DNA of 64,000 nucleotides from Lactobacillus sp. PV012. GTDB lineage: Bacteria; Bacillota; Bacilli; Lactobacillales; Lactobacillaceae. This document shows, in pieces, positions 15,962 through 22,320 of the stretch. The position numbers and the translations under genes were made by a program. Where the stretch lies: the NCBI RefSeq assembly GCF_014522325.1, contig NZ_CP041983.1, forward strand, positions 62,001 to 126,000. The letters run 5' to 3'. Within the stretch, counting starts at the first letter, position 1. Every line of letters starts with the position of its first letter. The notes below the pieces were generated by a model, which had not been told where the DNA came from, made no database searches, and saw nothing but the letters and a program-made list of their open reading frames with translations.

Positions 15962-16636
15962 ATGAAGATATTAATAGCAGAAGACGATAAAAATATTCAA
16001 ACACTGTTGAAAGCTTATTTAGAAAATGATTATCAAATTGTACAAGCTATTGATGGTCAAGAAGCTATAAATTACTTGGAAAAGTATCCAGTTAATCTTT
16101 TAATTACAGATATCATGATGCCGAAGGTATATGGTTTTGAATTAGTAAAGAAAGTTCGTCAGGCAGGATATGATTTCCCAATTATGATGTTAACCGCTAA
16201 AGATTCAATTCAAGATAAAACAATTGGTTTTGAAAATGGTGTAGATGACTACATGACTAAGCCGATTAATTATCAAGAATTAAAGTTGCGTTTAGTGGCT
16301 TTAATTCGAAGAGCTAATATTCAACATCCCCAGCAATTAGAAATTAAAGATATAGTGATAAATAAACAAACGTATAAGTTAGTACGTGGAAAAGAAGAAG
16401 TGGAATTTTCTAAAAAGGAATTTAAATTGCTTTATAAGTTGCTTTCCTCGCCAGACCAAATTTTTACTAAGGAACAATTGTTAGACGCAGTTTGGGGAAG
16501 GGATTCATTCAGTACAGAAGATACTGTTAAAACTCACATTAGTAAATTAAGAAAATTATGCGCTTCATATGAAGATGCATTTAAAATAGTTACTGTTAGA
16601 GGATTAGGTTATAAGGGGGAAATCATTGAAAAATAA
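15962..16636 (+). CDS. OmpR/PhoB-family response regulator
   Basis: The 224-aa protein has a receiver domain (residues 1-~118: acidic pocket EDD, phospho-acceptor Asp in LLITDIMMPK, MLTAKDS, TKPIN) and a C-terminal winged-helix DNA-binding domain (FSKKEFKLLYKLL...VKTHISKLRKLC...VTVRGLGYK). No Shine-Dalgarno is visible before the ATG (AAAAATAAAAAATAAATT), unusual in this window. It heads an operon with two tandem histidine kinases, the first of which is broken by an IS. Its regulon cannot be told from sequence. Confidence 0.93.
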   Translation: MKILIAEDDKNIQTLLKAYLENDYQIVQAIDGQEAINYLEKYPVNLLITDIMMPKVYGFELVKKVRQAGYDFPIMMLTAKDSIQDKTIGFENGVDDYMTKPINYQELKLRLVALIRRANIQHPQQLEIKDIVINKQTYKLVRGKEEVEFSKKEFKLLYKLLSSPDQIFTKEQLLDAVWGRDSFSTEDTVKTHISKLRKLCASYEDAFKIVTVRGLGYKGEIIEK

Positions 16637-17219
16637 AAGTACTTCTTTCTCTTTTTTAATAGTTGTTTACTCTGCATTTCTTGCACTGGTAGTAGCACCA
16701 TTATTTGGCGGTGCAGTGGGAGTATCGGTGTATACGGGTAAAAGTCCCCATATTATTGGCTGGTTAATGATTACTCTATTGTTTGTGCTAAGCTTTATTG
16801 TGAATTATCTTGTATTAACATATTTATTTACTTACGTTAATAAACTGACACAAGCAATTAAACAAGTGGCTAATGGTGATTTTAGGATAAGATTAGAAAG
16901 AAATAGATTTAATCCATTTGACTCAACTTTTTCTGACTTTAATCATATGGTTTCTGAATTAGATAGCACAAAAGTTATGAAGGAAGATTTTATTAGTAAG
17001 TTTTCTCATGAATTTAAAACTCCAATTACTTCAATTCATGGTTTTGCAGATTTACTTTTAAATCAAGAATTATCAAAACAAAAGCAAAAAGAATACTTGA
17101 AAATAATTGCAGAAGAATCGAATCGTTTAAGTCAACTTTCAACACAAATAATGAAACTAACGAATTTAGAAAATAAAAAAATAGTAACAAATAAGAAAAA
17201 AATAGAAGTTGACGAATGA
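16626..17219 (+). pseudogene. Sensor histidine kinase 1, N-terminal part (split by IS)
   Basis: The first half of a HisKA kinase: two membrane segments (residues ~8-35 and 45-70), a HAMP linker (LTQAIKQVANGDFRIRL) and the H-box SHEFKTPITSIHGFADLL. Start is TTG at 16626, with AAGGGGGA upstream and an 11-base overlap with the response regulator. The frame runs into the 1,496-bp IS at 17217. The missing half resumes at 18713 as EELRKVLISLF, and joining across one GAA gives VDEELRK, as in the intact paralogue downstream. The truncated protein keeps the H box but has no ATPase domain. Confidence 0.9.
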
Positions 17220-17269
17220 AGTGCCTCATAATTGTTAGACATAGATCTAACGATTGTGAGGTATTTTTT

Positions 17270-17806
17270 ATGACTAAATATTCTAATGGGTTCAAAATTA
17301 AGATTGTTTCTGAATTCTTTAATCATCAAGATTCAATAAAGGGATTAAGTAGAAAGTACAATATTCCTTACTCTATGGTATATAAATGGATTCATCAGGC
17401 TGATGAAAATGGCCTTGAATCTCTTAAAATTAAACATAAGAAGATGAACTATTCTCCTGAGTTTAAGTTAAATGTGGTACGCTATTATTTAAATAATCCT
17501 AATTTAGGAATAACTCCGGTAGCTGCCAAGTTCAATATAAATTCTTCTCAGGTTTACACTTGGGTTAATAAATTTAAAAAAGAAGGTATGGCTGGTTTAC
17601 TTCCTAAGCAGAAAGGACATCCATCCAAAATGCCTAAGAAACCTAAAAAGAAACAAGCTCAAAAGATAAAACTTAGTGAGAAGCAAAAATATGAAGAGAA
17701 GATTATTAAACAAGAAGCGGAAATCGAAAAATTAAAACTGGAGAATCTTGTCTTAAAAAAAGTGGCTGCCCGTTATCCTCGCTATCCAACAAAGAAAAAA
17801 CGCTAA
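17270..17806 (+). CDS. IS3-family transposase OrfA (copy 1)
   Basis: 178-aa DNA-binding subunit with two helix-turn-helix units (KIVSEFFNHQDSIKGLSRKYNIPYSMVYKWI and the segment around FKLNVVRYYLNNPNLGITPVAAKFNI). A basic linker and a leucine-zipper-like coiled coil (KYEEKIIKQEAEIEKLKLENLVLKK) follow. It ends in PTKKKR. The ATG at 17270 is chosen because upstream codons belong to the inverted repeat. An A-rich slippery run (AAAGAAAAAAC) just before the stop would allow -1 frameshifting into OrfB. Confidence 0.88.
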   Translation: MTKYSNGFKIKIVSEFFNHQDSIKGLSRKYNIPYSMVYKWIHQADENGLESLKIKHKKMNYSPEFKLNVVRYYLNNPNLGITPVAAKFNINSSQVYTWVNKFKKEGMAGLLPKQKGHPSKMPKKPKKKQAQKIKLSEKQKYEEKIIKQEAEIEKLKLENLVLKKVAARYPRYPTKKKR

Positions 17807-17829
17807 TTATCAAGGATATTCGGGCTAAA

Positions 17830-18675
17830 GTGCCAACTGTAAAGCTGAATACCTTATTTAGTCTGCTTAAGCTTAATCGAAAAACATATTATGATAACTT
17901 AAAAAATCGAATTAATAAGTGCGATAGATACGCTAAAGTTAAGAAAGAAATTAATCATATTTATTATGATGAAAGTAATGAAACATACGGTTATCGGCGT
18001 ATTTGGGGCGCTTTAAAAGATACTGGTATCAATCTTGCTAAGGAAACTGTTCGTAAAATTATGCGTGATATGGGTATTAAAACCATGATTTATCATAAGA
18101 ATACAGCTAAGTACAGTTCTTATAAAGGTAGCGTTGGCAAAAAGGCTCCTAATATTCTTAATCAGATCTTTGATGAGACTATCCCTTATAAGGTCTTGCA
18201 TACCGATGTAACAGAATACAAATTAACTAATGGCAAAAAAGTCTATATTTCACCAATAGTTGATGAAGCATCTCTGGAAATACTGGCTTGTGCAGTTAGT
18301 TACTCTCCTGAGATGAAGACTATTTATAGGATGCTTGATGAACTTGAAGTAAATTTACCAAAAGATGCACGACCAATTTTACATTCTGATCAAGGTTTTC
18401 AATATCAAAATGCTGGTTATCAAGCCCGTCTTAAAGAAATGAATATTACACAAAGCATGTCTAGAAAAGGAAATTGTCATGATAATGCGCCAGGTGAAAC
18501 TATATTCAACCTAATGAAAAGAGAATGCCTAAATCGACTTAAGATTGGCTCTCTTGAAGAGATGAAGCAAGTGTTAAGTAAGTATGTCACTTGGTTTAAT
18601 AATATTCGTCGTTCCAATAAATTAAAATACACGACTCCTGTAAAATACAGAAATCGTGTATTATCAAGTATTTAA
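17830..18675 (+). CDS. IS3-family transposase OrfB, DDE integrase (copy 1)
   Basis: 281-aa catalytic part with an HTH_21-like region (YYDESNETYGYRRIWGAL) and an rve integrase core. The catalytic Asp residues lie in LHTDVTEYK and HSDQGFQYQ and the Glu in PGETIFNLMKRE. The open frame extends upstream of the listed GTG to the A-rich run in OrfA, so the natural product is probably an OrfAB fusion made by -1 frameshifting. This copy looks intact. Confidence 0.9.
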   Translation: MPTVKLNTLFSLLKLNRKTYYDNLKNRINKCDRYAKVKKEINHIYYDESNETYGYRRIWGALKDTGINLAKETVRKIMRDMGIKTMIYHKNTAKYSSYKGSVGKKAPNILNQIFDETIPYKVLHTDVTEYKLTNGKKVYISPIVDEASLEILACAVSYSPEMKTIYRMLDELEVNLPKDARPILHSDQGFQYQNAGYQARLKEMNITQSMSRKGNCHDNAPGETIFNLMKRECLNRLKIGSLEEMKQVLSKYVTWFNNIRRSNKLKYTTPVKYRNRVLSSI

Positions 18676-18712
18676 AATTTTATAAAGTGTCTAACTTTCT
18701 TATGGCACTTCA

Positions 18713-19138
18713 GAAGAGTTGCGAAAAGTCCTCATTTCTTTATTTGCGACTATTGAAAAAAAGAAACTTAAGTATAAGGTAAATTTAGAAAAAGTAACTT
18801 ATTTTACAGATCCAGAATTGTTAAAGGGTGTCTGGGTTAATTTGTTAAATAATGCAATTAAATTTGCTCCTGAAAAAGGAACTATCTTTGTAAGTTGCTA
18901 TAAAAGAGATAAGCAAGTTGAAGTAATTATTGGTAATAACGGGGAAAAGATTAATGATAAAGAAAAAGAAAAGATATTTGAAAAGTTTTATCAAGGTGAT
19001 CACCCTAAGCAATCTCTTGGTTTAGGATTAGGTTTAACAGTAGTCAAGCAACTCCTAGAGATTCTAGGGGGGGAGATAGGTGTCATGTCAACATATGATG
19101 GTATAGAAGGAACATTTTTTAAGGTTAGGTTAGGATAA
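18713..19138 (+). pseudogene. Sensor histidine kinase 1, C-terminal part
   Basis: The second half of the split kinase: remaining dimerisation helix then the HATPase domain with the N box (NLLNNAIKFAPEKGTIFV), G1 (IIGNNGEKI) and G2 (LGLGLGLTVVKQLLEILGG) motifs, ending ...FFKVRLG. It begins directly at the GAA target duplication. There is no credible own start, so it is unlikely to be made as an active kinase. Confidence 0.88.
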
Positions 19139-19145
19139 TGATAAA

Positions 19146-20207
19146 GTGAAAAATAAGAAAAAATTGTATTCAAGATCAGCAATAGGATACTCAGTAATAA
19201 TTGCTTTTATAGCAGTAATCATCATTGATCTACTACTATTTTTCTGGGTACTTCATGCGCCCTATGGCTTGATGCCTCCTGGTACAGCACCATTTGTAGT
19301 TGGAGCGGTGGCAACCCTTCTTTTGCTTATAGTTATTTTTATTGCAGTTTATTTAGTGCTAAATCCCCTTATTAAGGCTTTAAATAAGTTAATTAAGAGT
19401 ATGCAAGAAGTAGCTGACGGTAATCTTTCAACTCGTTTAGAAACTAATTCTACTAATTTATTAAACAAGGCTTTTGAAAACTTTAATAAAATGGTAGCTG
19501 ACTTAAATGGGCTAGAATTATTAAAAGAAGATTTTATTAGTAAATTTTCTCATGAATTTAAAACACCAATTGCATCAATTAATGGCTTTGCTCAATTATT
19601 AACAGATCCAAATATTCCAGTTAACAAAAAAGAAGAATATAGTAAAATTATTGCTGAAGAATCAGAGAGGTTAAGTAAATTATCTGGGCAAATAATGTTG
19701 CTTACTAACTTGGAAAATAAAACAATTATTAGTGAAAAAGAAAATGTAGAAATTGATGAGGAGCTAAGAAAGGCAGTTATTTCGCTGTTACCAAGTTTAG
19801 AAGCTAAAGAACTATCTTATGAATTAAAAGAACTATCTTATGAATTAGATGTACAAAAAGCTACTTTTTATTCGAACGCAGAATTATTAAGAGAGATATG
19901 GATTAATTTGTTAAACAATTCTATTAAATTTACGCCTAAAGGAGGAACGATTTTTATAAGTTGTAAAGAAAAAAGAGGAGGAAAAGTTAGTGTAATAATC
20001 GGTAATAATGGACCGATAATAGCTGAAAAAGAAAAAAATAAGATTTTTCAAAAGTTCTATCAAGGTAATCATGATCAGAAAAATCAAGGCTTAGGACTAG
20101 GTTTAAGTATTGTTAAACAAATTTTAGACTTAGTAGGTGGCAAAATTACCGTTAAAACTAGTTATAAAAATATCTCAGGAACTTTCTTTGAAGTAATTTT
20201 GTACTAA
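19146..20207 (+). CDS. Sensor histidine kinase 2 (paralogue of the split kinase)
   Basis: 353-aa membrane kinase with two N-terminal membrane segments, HAMP, H box SHEFKTPIASINGFAQLL, N box NLLNNSIKFTPKGGTIFI and G box LGLGLGLSIVKQILDLVGG. GTG start eight bases after the previous reading frame ends; the ribosome-binding site is weak (AGGATAA). It closely resembles histidine kinase 1, pointing to tandem duplication behind one response regulator. A perfect 21-bp tandem duplication at 19806-19847 gives KELSYEL twice in the linker before the ATPase domain. The upstream IS may be polar on it. Confidence 0.9.
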   Translation: MKNKKKLYSRSAIGYSVIIAFIAVIIIDLLLFFWVLHAPYGLMPPGTAPFVVGAVATLLLLIVIFIAVYLVLNPLIKALNKLIKSMQEVADGNLSTRLETNSTNLLNKAFENFNKMVADLNGLELLKEDFISKFSHEFKTPIASINGFAQLLTDPNIPVNKKEEYSKIIAEESERLSKLSGQIMLLTNLENKTIISEKENVEIDEELRKAVISLLPSLEAKELSYELKELSYELDVQKATFYSNAELLREIWINLLNNSIKFTPKGGTIFISCKEKRGGKVSVIIGNNGPIIAEKEKNKIFQKFYQGNHDQKNQGLGLGLSIVKQILDLVGGKITVKTSYKNISGTFFEVILY

Positions 20208-20671: not shown

Positions 20672-22006
20672 TTAATTAACTGTATTTTTTGAATAGTATC
20701 TTTTTACTAAATATAAAATAGGGAGACCAATAATAACCATTCCTAGGAATAAACCAACGCCAGCTGGATCGTTGATAATTTCACTTACTATGATATAAAG
20801 ACCACCAAGAATAGCAATAATTGGAACAAGAGGATAAAGAGGTGTACTAAAAGGTCGATGATTGTGTTTCTTTCTTAAAATGAAAATCCCAAAAAATGCT
20901 AATATGTAAAAGCAGTAGATAGTAAAGACACATAAATCTGAAAGATGATCTGGATCGAAAAAAATCATCATTAAAGTAGCTAGTCCGACAATCAAAGCAG
21001 TAGCTGTTAAGGGAGATTTACCCTTTGGAGTTAAGTAGGAAAGAAATTTTGAAAAAGGGATGTCTTTTCTTTCAGCCATGGCATAAACAATTCTAGGGAA
21101 GGTGATAATTTTTCCATTTAAAGTTCCCATCATTGAAACGATAATTCCTGCAGTTAGAAGTTTACCTCCAATTTCACCAAAAGCTTTGGTAGCAAGATAA
21201 GCAGTCGTATTTTCACCAAGTCTGTGGATCATATCAACAGGAATAAATCGCAAAATCCCCGCAGTAATTAATGTATAAACAATTAATACAGCGGTAATTC
21301 CCAAAATAATAGCTTTAGGTAAAACCTTTTGAGGATTTTTCATTTCACCACCCAATGTGGCAATTAAAATCCAACCATCATAACCAAAGAGAGTTGCTAA
21401 GACTGCTACCCCAAAGCCACCGCTGGTATGGTTGATTTGGCTAAGTGTTTGCCCAAAGGCGTCTTGTTTACCCCAAAAGATACCAAAAATAATGATTGCT
21501 GCAATTGGAATCATTTTCCCGATTGTCGTAATCACAGAAAAAGCAGATCCAACTTTGTTATCAAAAAAGTTAAGAATTCCAATAAAAATAATAGTAATGA
21601 GAGCTAAAGGAATACGCCAAGCACTTGAGAGACCAAAAAAGTTAGCCATTAAGATACTCATAAAACCAGCAACTGAAGCAATAATCGCAGGACCGTAGAC
21701 AATCACTTGCATCCACCCTGCTAAAAATCCAGCAATACGACCGTAGAGACGCTCGATATAAACGTAAAGTCCCCCAGTGTAAGGCATTTGAGCTCCAATT
21801 TCTGCAATAGTGAGTCCGCCAGTTAAAGTAATAATTCCTCCCAAGACCCAGGCGAAGATTGTCATTGTAGAAGTTTTAGCACTATCTAAAACAGATGCTT
21901 GTTTAAAAAAGATTCCTGATCCAATAATTGTTCCAATTACAATTGATAAGGCTGACCAAAAGCCAATTGAACGCTTAAGCTTATCAGCAGGTGGTTGATT
22001 ATTCAT
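20672..22006 (-). CDS. APC-family amino-acid permease, probably serine/threonine exchanger (SteT-like)
   Basis: 444-aa transporter of the LAT/SteT branch with 12 predicted membrane segments. The APC consensus IGTIIGSGIFFKQASVL is in TM1, and GGLYVYIERLYGRIAGFLAGW spans TM3. The start ATG at 22006 is fixed by AGGGGGA six bases before it; an in-frame ATG at 22027 lies upstream of that site. The 5' leader encodes a 21-aa peptide with seven Ser codons in eight and an attenuator-like terminator, which supports serine (or a related amino acid) as substrate. Substrate remains inference. Confidence 0.85.
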   Translation of the reverse strand: MNNQPPADKLKRSIGFWSALSIVIGTIIGSGIFFKQASVLDSAKTSTMTIFAWVLGGIITLTGGLTIAEIGAQMPYTGGLYVYIERLYGRIAGFLAGWMQVIVYGPAIIASVAGFMSILMANFFGLSSAWRIPLALITIIFIGILNFFDNKVGSAFSVITTIGKMIPIAAIIIFGIFWGKQDAFGQTLSQINHTSGGFGVAVLATLFGYDGWILIATLGGEMKNPQKVLPKAIILGITAVLIVYTLITAGILRFIPVDMIHRLGENTTAYLATKAFGEIGGKLLTAGIIVSMMGTLNGKIITFPRIVYAMAERKDIPFSKFLSYLTPKGKSPLTATALIVGLATLMMIFFDPDHLSDLCVFTIYCFYILAFFGIFILRKKHNHRPFSTPLYPLVPIIAILGGLYIIVSEIINDPAGVGLFLGMVIIGLPILYLVKRYYSKNTVN

Positions 22007-22020
22007 TTCGATTCCCCCTA

Positions 22021-22081
22021 AAAACAAAAGAAAAAGCCCAATTCACTACTTCACTTAAAGTGATGAGAGTGAGTTGGACTT
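22021..22081 (-). terminator. Leader terminator of the APC gene (attenuator)
   Basis: On the minus strand AAGTCCAACTCACT (22081-22068) pairs with AGTGAATTGGGCTT (22047-22034) with one mismatch and one G-U. An inner hairpin TCACTT/AAGTGA (22051-22063) extends it, and TTTTTCTTTTGTTTT follows. It lies between the leader peptide and the transporter's ribosome-binding site, so it can stop transcription before the gene. Confidence 0.8.
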
Positions 22082-22137
22082 AAAAAGTTATTATTTTCAG
22101 CACACCAAATCACTCAATCCCATTAGAGGAGATTGAG
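22067..22137 (-). promoter_or_regulatory. Alternative RNA pairings of the serine attenuator
   Basis: In minus-strand order, region 1 CTCAATCTC (22137-22129, inside the Ser codons) pairs with region 2 GGGATTGAG (22121-22113). Region 2 GAGTGATTTGG (22115-22105) can instead pair 10 of 11 bases with region 3 CCAACTCACTC (22077-22067), the 5' arm of the terminator. Thus 1:2 permits termination and 2:3 prevents it, the classic leader-peptide attenuation geometry. Confidence 0.7.
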
Positions 22138-22175
22138 GAGGAAGATGAATTTACATGATTTATTGTGTAATTCAT
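22110..22175 (-). CDS. Serine-rich leader peptide (21 aa)
   Basis: A 22-codon frame, ATG to TGA, begins 7 bases after AGAGG. Codons 10-17 read SSSSSISS (TCA TCT TCC TCC TCA ATC TCC TCT). The Ser codons coincide with the 5' arm of the first leader hairpin, and the stop lies in its 3' flank. This is what is expected of a control peptide whose translation senses charged tRNA-Ser. No homologue is known to me. Confidence 0.7.
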   Translation of the reverse strand: MNYTINHVNSSSSSISSNGIE

Positions 22176-22211
22176 AAGTGTACCTCTTTAATTTAAAAAT
22201 CTTATAAGAAA

Positions 22212-22240
22212 AGAATAGCATGGATGAAATTAGATTGCAA
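22212..22240 (-). promoter_or_regulatory. Promoter of the leader peptide-APC unit
   Basis: Minus strand TTGCAA (22240-22235), 17 bases, then TATTCT (22217-22212) with an extended -10 TGC in front. The predicted start is about 30 bases before the leader-peptide ATG. Confidence 0.6.
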
Positions 22241-22320
22241 TTAACAAGTTGATCTTGCTAAAAGCCCCCCACTTGTTTAAAATAAAAATACTATATAAAG
22301 GAGAAGACTAACAGGAAAGA

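Follow-up and report, generated by a model that had tools for sequence, protein, structure and literature searches.

What controls an amino-acid transporter gene that is preceded by a short serine-rich reading frame and a terminator? We examined such a gene in a 64,000-nucleotide stretch of the genome of Lactobacillus sp. PV012 (contig NZ_CP041983.1, positions 62,001 to 126,000; hereafter the window, whose own numbering is used throughout), where a 21-codon leader open reading frame (ORF) with a run of Ser codons lies on the minus strand upstream of an APC-type transporter. We conclude that this leader very probably attenuates transcription by the ribosome-mediated trp/his mechanism, sensing charged tRNA-Ser and regulating a BasC-like transporter. 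The leader has the anatomy, the conservation and the occlusion geometry of such an element; we infer that ribosomes stall on it in vivo, that transcription there terminates or reads through, and that the transporter carries serine. The window attenuator is apparently one of a larger set in the Lactobacillaceae, seemingly undescribed, whose leaders read Ser, Thr/Ser or Asn.

In the trpL, hisL and thrL attenuators, the leader ORF contains consecutive cognate codons and is combined with the exclusive pairings 1:2, 2:3 and 3:4, a stop codon in region 2 and an intrinsic terminator. The initial annotation had proposed the same arrangement here: a promoter, a ribosome-binding site, a 21-amino-acid frame with Ser at seven of the eight codons 10-17, and a terminator ahead of the transporter ATG. 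Each of these elements was found in place. Hairpin 1:2 (22137-22129 with 22121-22113), the competing 2:3 and the second role of region 3 as terminator 5' arm were also borne out, with 10 of 11 bases paired between region 2 (22115-22105) and region 3 (22077-22067). The elements are as follows.

22212-22240, minus strand: promoter, with -35 TTGCAA at 22240-22235, a 17-nucleotide spacer and an extended -10 TGcTATTCT, hexamer at 22217-22212.
22183-22189, minus strand: ribosome-binding site of the leader ORF, AAAGAGG, 7 nucleotides 5' of the leader ATG.
22110-22175, minus strand: leader ORF of 21 codons plus TGA, predicted product MNYTINHVNSSSSSISSNGIE, read in the sequence and with counterparts in orthologous leaders.
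22125-22148, minus strand: regulatory Ser codons, codons 10-17, seven of eight being Ser (codons 10-14, 16 and 17).
22129-22137, minus strand: region 1, the 5' arm of hairpin 1:2, within the Ser codons (from folding and covariation).
22105-22121, minus strand: region 2, of which 22121-22113 pairs with region 1 and 22115-22105 with region 3; it holds the leader stop codon.
22067-22077, minus strand: region 3, the 3' arm of the antiterminator 2:3 and also part of the terminator 5' arm.
22034-22081, minus strand: intrinsic terminator hairpin 3:4 (from folding and partner permutation).
22026-22035, minus strand: U tract of the terminator (from the sequence).
22177-22184, minus strand: 5' arm of an additional pairing, P0, between the leader ribosome-binding site and ATG; secondary and less certain.
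22099-22106, minus strand: 3' arm of P0, which shares bases with the end of region 2 and continues past it; secondary and less certain.
22014-22019, minus strand: ribosome-binding site of the transporter, AGGGGG.
20672-22006, minus strand: gene for an APC/LAT-type amino-acid transporter of 444 amino acids, ATG at 22006; closest solved relative BasC.

In the mechanism that we propose, a ribosome would start translating the leader ORF in the wake of RNA polymerase. Given ample Ser-tRNA it would reach the UGA inside region 2 and cover region 2, and the terminator 3:4 would then end transcription. With scarce Ser-tRNA it would stall on the Ser codons and open 1:2, leaving region 2 free; 2:3 would form as region 3 emerges, 3:4 would be pre-empted and the transporter would be made.

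Among 75 genomes of the genus, all 22 transporter copies at ≥71% identity (from 21 genomes) carry a Ser leader; in one of them, L017, the transporter frame is interrupted by a stop codon, and a 23rd copy, L035, is cut by a contig end. A wider collection of 54 contig loci, which overlaps the genus set, has the Ser leader at 33 of 37 loci of ≥72% identity and at none of 17 of ≤64%. Judged in the same way, the first copy of a tandem transporter pair (67% identity) lacked a leader in three of three cases, as did nine of nine more distant paralogue loci. The tandem pair occurs in three Lactobacillus genomes (L032, L033 and L034), with the Ser leader on the second copy only. A contig labelled as a Bacteroides sp. 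metagenome-assembled genome (JAAVEO010000003.1, L036) holds a 92% identical transporter with a Lactobacillus-type Ser leader, and its Bacteroides bin label is probably wrong.

Removing identical sequences left 43 distinct leaders from Lactobacillus and Limosilactobacillus orthologues, on which the computations below are based; L080 (79% identity, leader MLVFNNQLQQSSSSASSSIRG) also carries a leader and stands outside these 43. All 43 keep the short leader ORF, which is predicted to be translated and in the window has its own ribosome-binding site and start, and all have a run of Ser codons at the control position (4-9 Ser each), with Ser making up 32% of the residues after Met. A pattern search located a -10-like hexamer in 40 of the 43, and a TG extension in 38 of them. 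The Ser codons are TCC (95), TCT (84), TCA (62), AGT (27) and AGC (19), with no TCG. Since both TCN and AGY are in use, Ser has been conserved across codon types at least two bases apart, and the residues flanking the run vary. Very often the core of the run reads TCC TCC TCA, which contains CCTCC, an anti-Shine-Dalgarno-like string; this string could pair with the ribosome-binding site of the leader or of the transporter.

To ask whether the arms of each pairing belong together, we compared the duplex energy of real arm partners with that of shuffled partners across the 43 leaders, using 3000 permutations. Real partners gave -13.66 for 1:2 (permuted -10.50, standard deviation (sd) 0.38), -15.30 for 2:3 (permuted -13.10, sd 0.32) and -29.88 for 3:4 (permuted -16.71, sd 0.84), values reached by no permutation. 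The same held (0 of 3000) when the leaders were split by hand into 23 grouped as Limosilactobacillus (1:2 -16.06 versus -14.76; 2:3 -15.76 versus -14.23) and the other 20 (1:2 -10.89 versus -8.76; 2:3 -14.76 versus -13.15). With bulges allowed, no leader among the 43 has fewer than 9 predicted 2:3 pairs (median 15), and 1:2, 2:3 and 3:4 are mutually exclusive, with 3:4 an intrinsic terminator. RNAalifold on 38 leaders returned 16 pairs, 12 of them with changes on both sides, most of these in 3:4. Region 2 is nearly invariant at GAGTGATTT, so that much of the variation in 2:3 is one-sided (G-C to G-U); double-sided change in 2:3 was found at its ends. The initial annotation had named orthologous leaders without the Ser run or without the competing pairings as what would count against it. 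We looked for them, and the outcome did not refute the annotation: the leader is kept in the proportions given above, and compensatory change supports its pairings.

These comparisons also brought out P0, which had not been part of the initial annotation. It joins the start region of the leader (22184-22177) to the bases just after region 2 (22106-22099), which are of the TTTGGTGT type. Across 41 of the 43 leaders (the anchor string is absent from L054 and L059), P0 gives -10.31 versus -8.34 permuted (sd 0.30; 0 of 5000 permutations reach it), a figure that includes several rows in which the best duplex is plainly at another site. Its 5' side lies upstream of or over the ribosome-binding site in most Limosilactobacillus, in the gap between ribosome-binding site and ATG in the window, and in the early codons in other Lactobacillus. 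P0 may be a secondary element that sequesters the leader ribosome-binding site or limits re-initiation on the leader.

We then placed a ribosome on the leader, with an assumed footprint of 13 nucleotides downstream and RNA polymerase just past region 3. In the window leader, 9-10 pairs of 2:3 remain with the A site at codons 10-17, six at codon 18, four at codon 19 and none at codons 20-22. Averaged over the 43 leaders, free RNA has a 2:3 energy of -15.3, which a ribosome with its A site at the first or the middle Ser codon leaves unchanged; one at the last Ser of the run weakens it to -10.3 and one at the stop to -1.0. Every leader holds on to 80% or more of its 2:3 energy in the first two positions and is left with 40% or less once the A site reaches the stop codon. 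A ribosome at the stop codon thus occludes region 2 and one at the control codons does not, clearly so at the first and middle Ser and more weakly at the last.

Several observations weigh against the attenuator as we describe it. Partner permutation, even within groups, leaves some relatedness in the statistics. Two Lactobacillus leaders are weak, L020 (4 Ser, 2:3 at -6.9) and L018 (2:3 at -10.5), and just 14 of the 43 leaders retain 80% of 2:3 once the A site reaches the final Ser of the run. Four of the 37 close orthologues (L055, L060, L062 and L063; from Limosilactobacillus gorillae, [Lactobacillus] timonensis, Candidatus L. merdipullorum and L. gastricus) have no leader. In all folds of the complete window leader the terminator 3:4 has greater stability than 2:3, and the minimum-energy fold of the partial transcript without a ribosome also prefers 2:3, which makes basal termination of untranslated RNA uncertain. 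Because 3:4 always wins at full length and 2:3 in the partial transcript, the switch must be kinetic; folding order during transcription likewise decides in E. coli trp attenuation. Folding the leader with and without a ribosome was a check that the initial annotation had suggested: a ribosome on the Ser codons leaves 2:3, one at the stop codon abolishes it, and equilibrium favours 3:4. The initial annotation is corrected in that 2:3 must win kinetically.

What the transporter carries is a separate matter. The 444-residue product is an APC permease (PF13520), with 6f2g/6f2w and 9h76 as best solved relatives (about 2e-90, residues 16-439), and this full-length homology to BasC and PF13520 places it with the BasC/SteT-type LAT transporters; NCBIfam returned LAT and APC models only, all below cut-off. 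According to passages of PMC6472337, 6F2G is BasC, an Ala-Ser-Cys exchanger from Carnobacterium sp. AT7. No serC match was found in the source genome at E ≤1e-30, and serC is present at that threshold in only 5 of the 75 genus genomes; with no serC match, the source organism probably imports its serine. The BasC-like window transporter probably imports serine, a role that gains support from the BasC match, from the lack of a serC match and from Ser-rich leaders before serC in other genera (below). An alternative is that the attenuator is real and the transporter mainly exchanges Ala, Cys or Thr, or exports serine, with serine scarcity as a proxy signal. BasC itself is an exchanger, SteT of B. 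subtilis is a Ser/Thr exchanger (passages of PMC2494555), and a transporter's substrate cannot be read from sequence. The leaders hold Ser, however, rather than Ala or Cys, and serine uptake is the obvious need of a genome with no serC match; we consider this alternative unlikely.

To determine how widely such leaders occur, we built a covariance model, R1, from 38 of the 43 leaders, leaving out near copies (L014, L044, L046, L052 and L067). At E ≤0.01 it matched 65 of the 397 Lactobacillaceae genomes, spread over 15 of 40 genera; a few of the weakest matches are chance. Across the order it matched 12 of 295 genomes at E ≤0.001; three were outside the family and weak, and the one of these that was read, L251, showed by eye no leader preceded by a ribosome-binding site and was set down to chance. 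Forty weaker R1 regions were read, and matches in G539 and G611 and 17 further weak rows lay outside the regions read. Thirty-four of the 40 held leaders; the other six (L152 and L155-L159) had no leader with a ribosome-binding site by eye and were taken as chance.

Four of these 34 were Ser leaders, three on the window type of transporter and one before serC, whose product passed NF003764 (442 bits against a cut-off of 253). Twenty-two were Thr/Ser leaders (e.g. LTSTSTTTTT) before permeases with a ThrP-like start, GQM[EQ]MIA, and eight were Thr/Ser leaders (e.g. TSSDST) before SteT-like permeases. The bifunctional Thr/Ser transporter ThrP was the best NCBIfam model for all three ThrP-like permeases tested (557-586 bits, below the cut-off of 850), and the SteT-like product at L135 had BasC as its best solved relative (2e-83). 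A second model, R2, built from 27 of the 30 Thr/Ser-type leaders (without L133, L140 and L147), matched 58 of the 397 Lactobacillaceae genomes, from 8 of 40 genera, at the same threshold of E ≤0.01, a set that overlaps that of R1 and includes some of the Ser leaders again. Twenty further regions, a subset of the R2 rows, all held a Thr/Ser-type leader, and a permease start was found in 19 (the exception being L220). In the 27 leaders behind R2, real versus permuted partners gave -14.99 versus -13.84 for 1:2, -14.91 versus -12.71 for 2:3 and -25.06 versus -14.22 for 3:4 (0 of 3000 each). The initial annotation had called leader-peptide attenuation rare in Lactobacillales; the R1 and R2 counts indicate that in Lactobacillaceae it is not so rare.

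Similar candidate leaders also precede serC. This gene was found at E ≤1e-60 in 20 of 41 genomes around G080, 11 of them in Lactobacillaceae; its start was located by pattern in 14 of the 20 loci, and the remaining six were read individually. By eye, a short Ser-rich ORF with a ribosome-binding site and a terminator-like hairpin lies before serC in 6 of the 11 Lactobacillaceae genomes, from five genera (L160, L161, L163, L164, L165 and L166), with the Ser stretches FSSSP (twice), VSSWSTVSS, SSFGSTRYS, SWASSS and SSSWST. The other five Lactobacillaceae serC genes had no such leader, and neither did any of those in the nine genomes of other families. Leader composition fits the function of the downstream gene, Thr/Ser before ThrP-like permeases and Ser-rich before serC.

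In Weissella, BasC-like permeases 51-54% identical to that of the window follow an Asn-rich leader (VNNNNNNNDN, L085) or Asp/Asn leaders (L083 and L086). A family-wide search with the L085 permease yielded 13 closest loci (L252-L264), from a genus (g19) that we take to be Weissella as well: six had Asn-rich leaders (e.g. INNNNNNRLN), one an Asp/Asn leader and six neither. Competing 2:3 and terminator pairings were present in L083, L085, L086, L252 and L256-L261. In seven Asn leaders (L085, L252, L256-L259 and L261), 2:3 ranged from -11.3 to -16.8, was intact with a ribosome in the middle of the Asn run and was lost with one at the stop. Going by the leader alone, these permeases may transport asparagine.

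Taken together, we consider it likely that Lactobacillaceae possess an undescribed, evolvable set of ribosome-mediated attenuators beside their T-boxes: BasC-like permeases have Ser leaders, as does serC in other genera, ThrP- and SteT-like permeases have Thr/Ser leaders, and a Weissella BasC-like permease has Asn leaders. Specificity could switch between Ser and Thr by point mutation, since TCC (Ser) and ACC (Thr) are one base apart in the same pairing frame. Such a set would add serine, and by extension asparagine, to the amino acids read by a classic mechanism, and would place it in a family where control by tRNA charging is normally ascribed to T-boxes. Where family models name no substrate for a transporter, the leaders suggest one (Ser, Thr/Ser or Asn), a hint that matters for lactobacilli dependent on imported amino acids. 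Finally, trp-type attenuation depends on a ribosome trailing RNA polymerase at a short distance, so that its operation in these Firmicutes would imply close coupling and make a debated point testable; Bacilli such as B. subtilis are described with runaway transcription in passages of PMC13323073, in which the term Lactobacill- is absent.

A ribosome halted for any reason along the Ser run would leave region 2 free, and ribosome-stalling leaders that sense slow translation are known in Firmicutes (PMC4191407 and PMC9226507). The window leader might thus be a general sensor of slow translation, responding to antibiotics or stringent conditions as erm-, bmrC- or vmlR-like leaders do, with a Ser run that is incidental or merely slows the ribosome. 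Against such a sensor, Ser is kept across TCN and AGY while flanking residues vary, the downstream genes that were read are amino-acid permeases and serC, and similar leaders carry Thr or Asn instead of Ser before other permeases. We regard it as improbable.

The attenuator of tRNA-Ser charging must also be set against a T-box, riboswitch or protein-controlled terminator that regulates the transporter, the short ORF being a bystander. T-boxes are common in the source genome, with 17 matches at E ≤0.001, five of them over the cut-off; one lies before serS (itself identified by NCBIfam, 540 bits against 302) at 79 of the 93 bits required. A Thr T-box also precedes the related ykbA/SteT in the B. 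cereus group (passages of PMC2494555). In the window, by contrast, all 4227 Rfam families at gathering score show two tRNAs only, without a match to the T-box (RF00230) or to the Trp, His, Leu, Thr and Phe leader families. At E up to 1 the leader region (21980-22320) has no T-box match and only snoZ101 and StyR-143, both at E about 0.5 and far under their cut-offs. A T-box or riboswitch in the leader was therefore rejected, as nothing beyond these two weak rows matched there, and the features that are conserved are the ORF, the Ser run and the position of the stop. The bystander explanation is highly improbable, and leader attenuation and T-boxes exist side by side in the source genome.

We also asked how often a leader of this kind arises by accident, scoring ATG ORFs of 14-30 codons with a ribosome-binding site and at least 4 Ser in 9 codons, up to 330 nucleotides upstream of a gene; the background covers the window and the fetched loci. 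Only one of the 46 window ORFs of ≥150 amino acids has such a leader, the transporter at 20672-22006. In the fetched loci 51 of 403 ORFs do, 49 of the 162 whose product begins with a permease or SerC motif and 2 of the other 241. Of these two, L069 is a copy of the window transporter missed by the motif and L055 an unrelated chance case. The low counts in the window and among motif-less ORFs indicate that leader and Ser run are more than chance. One genome alone could not exclude an AT-rich intergenic terminator beside a random Ser-rich ORF, and L055 shows that such ORFs occur, but 43 distinct orthologous leaders with coevolving pairings leave this explanation almost no probability, and a chance ORF is refuted by conservation.

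Elsewhere in the window, an IS3-family transposase pair on the plus strand (17216-17806, the first piece, below its family cut-off, and 17830-18675) separates two pieces that read as one histidine kinase ORF (16626-17219 and 18719-19138); a second kinase adjoins it at 19146-20207. The IS3 element probably inserted into the histidine kinase gene (16626-19138) and broke it.

The initial annotation knew of no described serine attenuator, and this agrees with the literature that we searched, which left most subscription journals and preprints outside its coverage, so that absence in print is not proven. No Ser leader is mentioned in passages on Firmicutes His leaders (PMC2965389, from which the word serine is absent in the text available, and PMC9413887), which for Lactobacillales give T-boxes rather than leader peptides. 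Term look-up found no Ser leader peptide in the available text of PMC1183508 and PMC4833913, nor the term leader peptide in that of a paper on RNA regulons (PMC3766115). Passages of PMC8632094 describe a Cys upstream ORF in Rhodobacterales and mention neither serine nor Lactobacillus. The mechanism is known; the Ser and Asn specificities, the serC leaders and the Lactobacillaceae set with its Thr and Asn relatives or look-alikes appear to be new.

Compared with the enterobacterial trp, his and thr attenuators, the window leader has the same layout of codon run, 1:2, 2:3 and 3:4 pairings, stop in region 2 and terminator. It differs in reading serine (Asn in similar leaders), in controlling a transporter rather than a biosynthetic operon, in its occurrence in Lactobacillaceae and in having P0, which ties the start region of the leader to bases that follow region 2. 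Within the Firmicutes, the Listeria branched-chain amino acid leader is reportedly subject to ribosome-mediated attenuation. The Leu-rich ilv leader of Staphylococcus aureus is a further case (PMC5794164); both of these sense branched-chain amino acids and serve a biosynthetic operon. His leader attenuators have been predicted by comparative genomics before hisZ and hisS* in bacilli, with a T-box before hisS in Lactobacillales (passages of PMC2965389), and before the his operon in three Firmicutes lineages, the B. cereus group, Eubacteriales and Erysipelotrichales (passages of PMC9413887). They share the predicted mechanism with the window leader and differ in amino acid, genes and lineage. 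BasC of Carnobacterium sp. AT7 (PDB 6F2G), the best solved relative of the window transporter (2e-90), is moderately related to it. The ykbA/SteT T-box of the B. cereus group likewise places a related LAT-type Ser/Thr transporter under the control of tRNA charging, but reads the tRNA directly, without a ribosome, and responds to Thr rather than Ser.

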